A DNA stretch of 64,000 nucleotides from Halalkalicoccus sp. CG83 (GTDB taxonomy: Archaea; Halobacteriota; Halobacteria; Halobacteriales; Halalkalicoccaceae), in assembly GCF_037081715.1 (NCBI RefSeq), contig NZ_JAZDDH010000002.1, positions 496,001 through 560,000 on the forward strand, written 5' to 3'. A model generated the notes under the pieces. The model worked only from the letters and a program-made list of their open reading frames with translations, was not told where the DNA came from and made no database searches. Below, in pieces: positions 50,075-52,070 of the stretch. How positions within the stretch are numbered: position 1 is the stretch's first letter; each line of letters opens with the position of its first letter. The position numbers and the translations under genes were made by a program.

Positions 50075-50563
50075 ATGAGCAAGATCACCTTCCGCGCCGA
50101 CGACGACCTCGTCCGACGGATCGAGGCGCTCGAGGCCTCGAAGAGCGAGGTCATGCGCGAAGCCCTCCGTGCGTATCTGGAGGACGCGTCGGCCGGCGTC
50201 GACGCCGAGACCGAGGGCTCGCTCGACGCGCTGATCACCGAACGGATCGATCGTCGCATCGACGAACGGCTCACGACCGGAGCGTCGTCGGTCGACGTCA
50301 ACGTCACGATCGAGGACGACCGAACGTCGTACGACCGTCGGTCGGCGACGGATCGAGAGCCCGAGCCGTCCGAGGCGCCGACGGACGGCCGTCACTGCAG
50401 ACAGTGCGGCGAGACCGTCGATGAGGGGCACGTCTACTGTCCCAACTGCGGCGAGAAAGCCGTAAACAGGACGTTCTGCGACTGCGGCGACGAGGTTCGC
50501 TCGGACTGGGCGTTCTGTCCGGGCTGCGGCCGTCGTACGCCCGCCGCGGACGTGCTCGAGTAG
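50075..50563 (+). CDS. cdrL: CdrL-like ribbon-helix-helix protein with zinc ribbons
   Basis: 162 aa. The N-terminus [20 protein letters not shown] then [18 protein letters not shown] is a ribbon-helix-helix domain. After an acidic linker come zinc knuckles: [20 protein letters not shown] and [18 protein letters not shown]. It lies directly upstream of cdrS and ftsZ2, as the long RHH regulator CdrL does in haloarchaea, where it controls the cdrS-ftsZ2 promoter. A TGATATAG TATA-like element is upstream. Identity is from domain and synteny. Confidence 0.85.
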
Positions 50564-50616
50564 TGTCGTACACGGGCCGGTAGTTTTAATAGTTCAGCGA
50601 GTTTCGGTAGGCCCAT

Positions 50617-50718
50617 GTAAGACAGCGTCTTACGCGCTAACCGCCGATTCGTCACGGATGGGGCGAATCGCTCGGGCGTGTAAGACACACGAGACCGGTG
50701 CGCCGGCACTCGTCTTAC
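50617..50718. promoter_or_regulatory. Four GTAAGAC half-sites in the cdrS-ftsZ2 promoter region
   Basis: Two inverted pairs: GTAAGAC-AGC-GTCTTAC (50617-50633) and GTAAGAC (50680-50686) facing GTCTTAC (50712-50718). A TTTTAATA TATA-like element at 50584-50591 would place transcription start near 50615, at the edge of the first pair. The second pair ends 15 bases before the cdrS ATG. Such repeated half-sites fit binding by a ribbon-helix-helix dimer; CdrL or CdrS is the obvious candidate. Confidence 0.65.
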
Positions 50719-50733
50719 AGGGGGAAGAACAAC

Positions 50734-50916
50734 ATGGAACGTGTGACACTGCGAATCCCGGAACAACAGATAGAAGAGGTCGAACGGATGGTCGAGACGG
50801 GGCAGTTCCCCAACCGGAGCGAGGCGATTCGCTCCGCGGTGCGGGAGATGCTCGACGAACGGGCCGCCCACCGAGACGCCCAGCAGACGCAGGAACGCCC
50901 CTGGGCGAAGGTGTAA
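50734..50916 (+). CDS. cdrS: CdrS, short ribbon-helix-helix cell-division regulator
   Basis: 60 aa: [20 protein letters not shown], then [20 protein letters not shown]. It is a bare ribbon-helix-helix protein, immediately before ftsZ2 with a two-base gap. In Haloferax and Halobacterium, CdrS in this position activates division genes and is needed for the transition from growth to division. Start chosen as the conserved Met after the operator region. Confidence 0.92.
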
Positions 50917-50918
50917 CG

Positions 50919-52070
50919 ATGCAGGACATCGTTCGCGACGCTCTCGACAACGCCGAAGAGGAACAGAAGCGAAAGAGCGAGCTCAGCGGCGCCGACGACT
51001 TCGGCGATCCCCGGATCGTCATCGTCGGCTGTGGCGGTGCGGGCAACAACACCATCAACCGGCTGTACAACATCGGCGTCGACGGCGCCGAGACGGTGGC
51101 GATCAACACCGACAAGCAGCACCTTCAGATGATCGAGGCCGATACCAAGATCCTCGTGGGCAAGTCGCTCACCAACGGCCTCGGCGCCGGTGGCGACCCC
51201 GAGATGGGCGAGCGCGCCACCGAGATGGCGACCGGCACCATCGAGGAGGTGCTCGGCGATGCCGACCTCGTGTTCGTCACCGCGGGCATGGGTGGCGGCA
51301 CCGGCACCGGCGCGGCGCCCGTCGTCTCGAAGATCGCGAAGAGCCAGGGTGCGATCGTCGTCGGGATGGTCTCGACGCCGTTTAACGTAGAGCGTGCCCG
51401 CACGGTGAAGGCCGAGGAGGGCCTCGAGAAGCTCCGCAACGAGGCCGACTCGATCATCGTGCTGGACAACAATCGTCTGCTCGATTACGTCCCGAACCTC
51501 CCGATCGGAAAGGCGTTCTCGGTGATGGACCAGATCATCGCCGAGACGGTCAAGGGGATCAGCGAGACGATCACCCAGCCCTCGTTGATCAACCTCGACT
51601 ACGCCGACATGACCGCGATCATGAACCAGGGCGGCGTCGCCGTCATGCTCGTCGGCGAGACCCAGGACAAGAACAAGACCGAGGAGGTCGTTAACGACGC
51701 GATGAACCACCCGCTGCTCGACGTCGACTACCGCGGCGCCTCCGGCGGGCTCGTCCACATCACTGGCGGCCCCGACCTTACGCTGAAGGAGGCCGAGGGG
51801 ATCGCCGACAACATCACCGAACGCCTCGAGGCGAGCGCGAACGTGATCTGGGGCGCACGCATCCAGGAGGAGTACAAGGGCAAGGTTCGCGTGATGGCGA
51901 TCATGACGGGCGTCCAGAGCGCCCAGATCCTCGGGCCCTCCACCCAGAAACAGGCCGACCGATCGCGCGCGAGCATCAACGGCGAGCCAGCCGCCCCCAG
52001 CAGCGGCCCGCAGAGCGACGGCGGCCAGGACGAACTCGAGAAGAACAACGGTCTCGACGTCATTCGCTGA
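50919..52070 (+). CDS. ftsZ2: Cell division protein FtsZ2
   Basis: 383 aa from [21 protein letters not shown] tubulin-like GTPase: nucleotide-binding [16 protein letters not shown], the signature [20 protein letters not shown] and the T7 loop [16 protein letters not shown] disordered C-terminus ends GLDVIR, a likely anchor-binding peptide. FtsZ2 is the haloarchaeal paralogue required for constriction; identity rests on synteny with cdrS. An AAGGTG Shine-Dalgarno-like run lies across the cdrS stop. Confidence 0.96.

Follow-up and report, generated by a model that had tools for sequence, protein, structure and literature searches.

A class-wide heptamer array before haloarchaeal cdrS-ftsZ2 that may combine an RHH operator with a structured leader RNA

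Four copies of the heptamer GTAAGAC, A and C on the forward strand and B and D on the reverse strand, precede cdrS-ftsZ2 in Halalkalicoccus sp. CG83. The best reading of this array, and one that we consider somewhat likelier to be right than wrong, is a ribbon-helix-helix (RHH) operator, bound by CdrL and probably by CdrS, superimposed on a regulatory leader RNA. Conservation of the array, its single copy, the position of a further half-site (U), covariation of the flanks in B:C and A:D, and retention in genomes without CdrL were computed directly. The stretch of DNA analyzed (the window) comprises 64,000 nucleotides and contains the following features.

50075..50563, plus strand: cdrL, 162 amino acids, RHH domain and double zinc ribbon (open reading frame; Pfam RHH_1 4.6e-05, DZR 9.6e-08)
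50565..50571, minus strand: half-site U, GTCGTAC, which reads GTACGAC on the minus strand; it precedes A by 52 bases and lies 5' of the TATA-like box
50584..50591, plus strand: TATA-like box TTTTAATA, from sequence
50617..50623, plus strand: heptamer A, GTAAGAC, left half of the A/B palindrome in DNA, located at the predicted start of transcription; predicted 5' arm of RNA helix P1
50627..50633, minus strand: heptamer B, GTCTTAC on the plus strand; 5' arm of predicted RNA helix P2
50634..50679, plus strand: B-to-C stretch, whose ends would lengthen B:C and whose middle would fold as the P2 cap (fold energy and flank covariation)
50680..50686, plus strand: heptamer C, GTAAGAC; predicted 3' arm of P2
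50687..50711, plus strand: P3, a predicted hairpin enclosed by C and D, core CCGG TGCG CCGG (folding)
50712..50718, minus strand: heptamer D, GTCTTAC on the plus strand; predicted 3' arm of P1, directly 5' of a purine-rich, ribosome-site-like stretch
50719..50724, plus strand: AGGGGG, putatively Shine-Dalgarno-like, 10 to 15 bases 5' of the ATG
50734..50916, plus strand: cdrS, 60-amino-acid RHH protein, ATG at 50734 (open reading frame; RHH_1 6.5e-09)
50919..52070, plus strand: ftsZ2, third in the row after cdrL and cdrS (open reading frame)

The four GTAAGAC half-sites that a preliminary description had claimed between the TATA box and the cdrS ATG are all exact, at the positions listed, and that placement is correct. 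The 64-kb window holds four GTAAGAC copies, all in this array. This is an ordinary number, as shuffled windows hold 3.11 on average, but the clustering is not ordinary: a Poisson estimate gives about 1.6e-6 for at least four copies inside some 102-base stretch of the window. A and B are 10 bp apart, center to center, and the promoter thus carries repeated short half-sites about one helical turn apart, as in RHH arrays. The genome itself (3.64 Mb) contains exactly one GTAAGACNNNGTCTTAC, and GTAAGAC-N3-GTCTTAC is unique in it. The second FtsZ paralogue, ftsZ1, is encoded elsewhere in this genome.

Next, 391 genomes of the class were searched with GTAAGAC-N2-5-GTCTTAC, using the reversed pattern as a control. 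The A/B pair was found in 376 of them and the control pattern in 2. The pair occurs once per genome, except in two genomes with two pairs apiece (G239 and G363), and such a single copy fits a regulator with one target. The cdrS gene was found in 387/391 genomes; G229, G348, and G362 have neither the A/B pair nor a cdrS match at E 1e-8, which may reflect assembly gaps. In a phylum sample, 63 of 65 class members carry the pair. Outside the class it did not exceed the control in that sample (4/279 versus 20/279), and such matches were rejected as chance. We also fetched the cdrS loci, retaining 168 genomes in 11 families (f1 to f11). A CdrL match adjoins cdrS in 160 of these 168 loci. The A/B pair is exact, with spacers of 2 to 6, in 160/168 promoters; the remaining eight have one altered arm, with B as GTCATAC or GTATGAC in six. 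Among the 160 promoters, C is exact in 101 and D in 144, and GGGG(G)AA after D is conserved in the family alignments. The same array occurs in named records that include Haloferax, Halobacterium, Halorubrum, and Natrinema. The comparison of cdrS promoters across haloarchaea, proposed in the preliminary description as a check on which loss of the heptamers would tell against it, therefore came out in favor of the array. The proposed genome search for further regulon members returned one A/B pair per genome, apart from the two exceptions above, and a regulon of GTAAGAC pairs was rejected. At one locus, G332:C1:2982714-2982891 (L073, L076), the cdrS match is split over two frames, as from a frameshift or a sequencing error.

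The preliminary description had overlooked this near-universal conservation, the RNA complementarity of A:D and B:C with its flank covariation, and half-site U. An exact GTCTTAC stands at the U offset in 73/160 promoters and a site with at most one mismatch in 100/160; control offsets gave 0 exact sites and 1 within one mismatch, of 800. U mostly lies 51 to 53 bases 5' of A (62 in a few promoters), upstream of the TATA-like box, which itself starts 32 to 33 bases before A in 151/160 promoters. Among the one-mismatch U sites, 22 of 27 have their mismatch at the central base alone, the pattern anticipated for a protein reading GTA-N-GAC; the commonest variant is GTCATAC (GTATGAC on the other strand). 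In families f2 and f4, U is poor or missing. Since U lies upstream of the TATA-like box, it should be outside the predicted transcript, and recognition on DNA would still be needed to account for it.

In Hbt. salinarum, the only reproducible CdrL ChIP-seq site is the region upstream of cdrS-ftsZ2, at region resolution, and CdrL has been stated to be present in all sequenced Halobacteria (PMC7439475). Nevertheless, whole-genome searches, including one with a profile of 13 CdrL proteins, did not find CdrL in 10 class genomes (G001, G007, G002, G026, G311, G093, G138, G183, G136, and G260). Their best profile matches were 2e-5 to 0.02, as against 1e-66 or better in four positive controls. The corresponding loci are L113, L094, L058, L062, L103, L057, L114, and L110, plus those of G007 and G311. 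In our sample, CdrL matches outside the class cover the zinc-ribbon part only. The A/B pair is kept exactly in all 10 genomes, where the array consequently occurs without CdrL, and CdrL as the sole keeper of the array was rejected. Something else therefore maintains it: RNA structure, another binder, or both. Of the CdrL-less leaders folded, 7/8 retain A:D and still pair B with the region of C, and the leader of G001 folds locally instead. The promoters of G001 and G007 are near-identical, and comparing them was uninformative about drift in the absence of CdrL. Exact C is found in 100/152 promoters with CdrL and in 1/8 without it, but family f3 is widely without exact C, and we do not claim a link between exact C and CdrL. 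The absence of CdrL from 10 genomes corrects the view of this protein as class-universal and as the whole key to the promoter.

Because the array survives the loss of CdrL, CdrS itself is probably a binder, and it is the obvious candidate. The pattern GTCNGAC-N4-GTCNGAC, at 11 to 12 of 12 positions, precedes ftsZ1 in 15/15 promoters examined (L318-L332), 62 to 68 bases before the ATG in 14 and with the best match at -122 in one; 5/318 background stretches score as high. In the CG83 genome this site reads GTCGGACGCGCGTCGGAC, and, judged from sequence, it is likely a CdrS-type site. The GTANGAC array shares its 7-4-7 geometry and differs by one base per half-site, so the array does not fit the ftsZ1-type pattern. 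At dacZ, another CdrS ChIP target, the match is ambiguous (11/25 promoters within 3 mismatches). The CdrS strand MERVTLRI aligns with MQRVTITL of NikR, and the reading-strand residues are R3/T5/R7 in CdrS and K3/T5/R7 in CdrL. ChIP in Hfx. volcanii, with plasmid-borne FLAG-CdrS, gave 18 sites, none of them listed at the cdrS promoter (PMC8406309). Around base 2001 of L376, L379, and L373, sites of the same kind precede a ParA-like ATPase gene and a bactofilin-like gene, both in G041, and in Haloferax G078 a similar protein is encoded close to such a site; these gene names come from reading the sequences. As for the earlier claim of a CdrL or CdrS operator, a conserved RHH-type site is very likely, given the CdrL ChIP signal and the single-copy A/B pair, whereas CdrL alone and a match to the CdrS type were not supported.

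To evaluate the leader RNA, bases after B were compared with those before C, and bases after A with those before D, with partners permuted within families. Flanks were used because the heptamers themselves hardly vary. Covariation and folds were compared in 94 distinct leaders with exact A to D, degenerate C or D being excluded; this selection favors paired heptamers, not paired flanks. In these 94 leaders, which are related and among which within-family permutation leaves some kinship, pairing of the B:C flanks was above all 2000 permutations, that of the A:D flanks gave P 0.004 (contiguous extension), and that of the local C:D flanks gave 0.99. When redundancy was reduced to leave 87, 64, or 46 sequences (the last at <72% identity), B:C was reached by 0/5000 permutations each time and A:D had P 0.003 to 0.008 (14 to 42 of 5000 permutations). 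Local C:D had P 0.92 to 0.99, and shifted registers were weak or null (0.03 to 0.93). A separate tool applied to the 37 leaders of family f4 counted 22 double-changed cells versus 10.6 in shuffles (0/500), and 1 versus 0.6 for the local-hairpin alternative. These results indicate base pairs backed by covariation in the leader. The two inverted pairs of the preliminary description do not correspond to the conserved RNA pairing, which joins B to C and A to D and not C to D, and the local hairpins A:B and C:D were rejected as the conserved structure.

In the minimum-energy fold of the window leader, A pairs with D and B with C. The nested fold beats the local one in 83/94 leaders, with a median gain of 4.5 kcal/mol at parameters for 1 M NaCl and 37 C, which are not those of the haloarchaeal cytosol; 11/94 favor the local fold. 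Across 144 promoters compared with shuffles, the mean fold z was -1.82 for the B-to-C stretch, versus +0.11 for cdrL coding controls, and -1.28 inside C-D, versus -0.06. Folding of the sense strand is more favorable than that of its complement, by a mean of -2.48 kcal/mol versus -0.55 in the coding control. Within the B-C loop, the compensatory signal is weak (30/59 double changes keep pairing, versus 39% in the control). The invariant heptamers drive the RNAalifold consensus, which gives local hairpins in f4 and A:D plus B:C in f5. A search of Rfam 15 with E values up to 1 gave no family match for the leader. Overall, the leader resembles a three-way junction that directly adjoins the ribosome site. 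A post-transcriptional layer has independent support in Hbt. salinarum, where mRNA and ribosome occupancy disagree for cdrS and ftsZ2 (PMC8303175). In Hfx. volcanii, a figure shows the cdrS 5' UTR, and the monocistronic cdrS RNA is reported at ~250 nt (PMC8406309), which is shorter than leader plus cdrS (~300) and calls for caution in assigning the full leader to the transcript.

Several rival explanations deserve weighing against this dual reading. One is that transcription of cdrS-ftsZ2 is set purely by CdrL, bound as RHH dimers to two inverted pairs, with the RNA pairing as a by-product. It is favored by the CdrL ChIP signal solely upstream of these genes (PMC7439475), the single copy of the array, and the restriction of both the array and the CdrL RHH domain to the class in our sample. 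Nonetheless, we judge it unlikely, since A/B is kept in the 10 genomes without CdrL and the B:C and A:D flank covariation is unexpected of an operator. That covariation is equally unexplained if the array is an operator for CdrS autoregulation, a GTANGAC variant of the GTCNGAC pairs of ftsZ1 with CdrL as an accessory. The presence of CdrS in 387/391 genomes, the equal 7-4-7 geometry in 15/15 ftsZ1 promoters, and the reading-strand residues R3/T5/R7, next to K3/T5/R7 in CdrL, speak for such autoregulation. With the cdrS promoter absent from the 18 ChIP sites as given in PMC8406309, and with the ambiguous dacZ match (11/25), it appears improbable.

Conversely, the heptamers might go unread on DNA, with a three-way junction, possibly switching between A:D/B:C and A:B/C:D, controlling translation or stability. 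The covariation, the folds, and the better folding of the forward strand than of its complement favor this, and mutual complementarity of the four heptamers would by itself freeze their sequence. We still hold it to be quite unlikely, because U, with its equal sequence and fixed offset, stands upstream of the TATA-like box outside the predicted transcript, and CdrL ChIP marks the region (PMC7439475). U is also unexplained if the heptamers are a signal for RNA processing or stability instead of a regulator-binding site. In Hbt. salinarum, conserved processing inside ftsZ2 close to its 5' end and a ribosome occupancy uncoupled from mRNA (PMC8303175) would agree with such a signal, but the conserved processing site reported there is in ftsZ2 and not in the cdrS leader, and this explanation seems highly improbable.

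In the favored combination of operator and leader RNA, leader transcription, protein binding, repression, and translational control are inferred steps. At the DNA level, the RHH half-sites around the cdrS-ftsZ2 core promoter would comprise U, A, and B, and perhaps also C and D. With U immediately 5' of the promoter elements and A/B covering the predicted start of transcription, bound dimers of CdrL (by ChIP in one species), and probably of CdrS itself, would hinder initiation. In the RNA, the leader of ~117 bases would fold into the three-way junction of A:D (P1), hairpin-capped B:C (P2), and a third hairpin between C and D. P1 would stop one or a few bases short of the ribosome-site-like GGGGA, and closure of the leader should reduce CdrS translation and, through coupling, FtsZ2 translation. 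The identities A=C and B=D would let the leader refold into two local hairpins (~4.5 kcal/mol less stable, median) in a switch-like manner. Pairing of A:D and B:C alone does not need these identities; they are needed only if one protein reads all the heptamers or if the RNA switches its pairing. A more speculative extension, which we regard as rather unlikely, is a bistable leader that adopts A:D/B:C or A:B/C:D according to the RHH regulators reading the DNA, with CdrL binding the leader RNA too. If true, FtsZ2 synthesis would be gated at two levels by one sequence code. The array is the likely control element of cdrS-ftsZ2, common to essentially the whole class. It bears on how archaea set the levels of division tubulins and introduces an RNA layer that was not expected and whose specific base pairs can be swapped. 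Haloferax volcanii and Halobacterium salinarum are genetically tractable models in which the element can be tested directly.

Related systems share single aspects of this arrangement. The CdrL region of Hbt. salinarum is the same promoter and holds the single CdrL site that was reproducible there, yet the main text of that report words no motif or palindrome, unlike the heptamer array described here, and the array persists in genomes without CdrL, unlike its picture of CdrL in all Halobacteria (PMC7439475). The CdrS sites of Hfx. volcanii, such as that of ftsZ1, likewise consist of two heptads with a 4-base spacer, are symmetric, and serve an RHH protein of the same locus (PMC8406309). The ftsZ1 half-site GTCNGAC is a symmetric heptad, whereas GTANGAC of the cdrS array is asymmetric, and the CdrS sites lie mostly 41 to 110 nt upstream of the start (PMC8406309), whereas A/B is at the predicted transcription start. 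The E. coli NikR operator, GTATGA-N16-TCATAC, has a near-identical half-site (GTATGA; PMC7055735) bound by an RHH protein with a similar reading strand, and differs in spacing, in nickel sensing, and in having no RNA element. Within the literature searched, a coverage outside which most subscription papers and all preprints fall, neither the array nor the leader structure is described. Ribosome-site-sequestering mRNA leaders, as a general kind, likewise have a conserved structure ending beside a ribosome-site-like stretch; the cdrS leader differs from them in having no Rfam 15 match and in that its arms double as candidate DNA half-sites. Operators and regulatory leaders are each already known in kind, and what would be new here is the superposition of an RHH operator and a regulatory leader.
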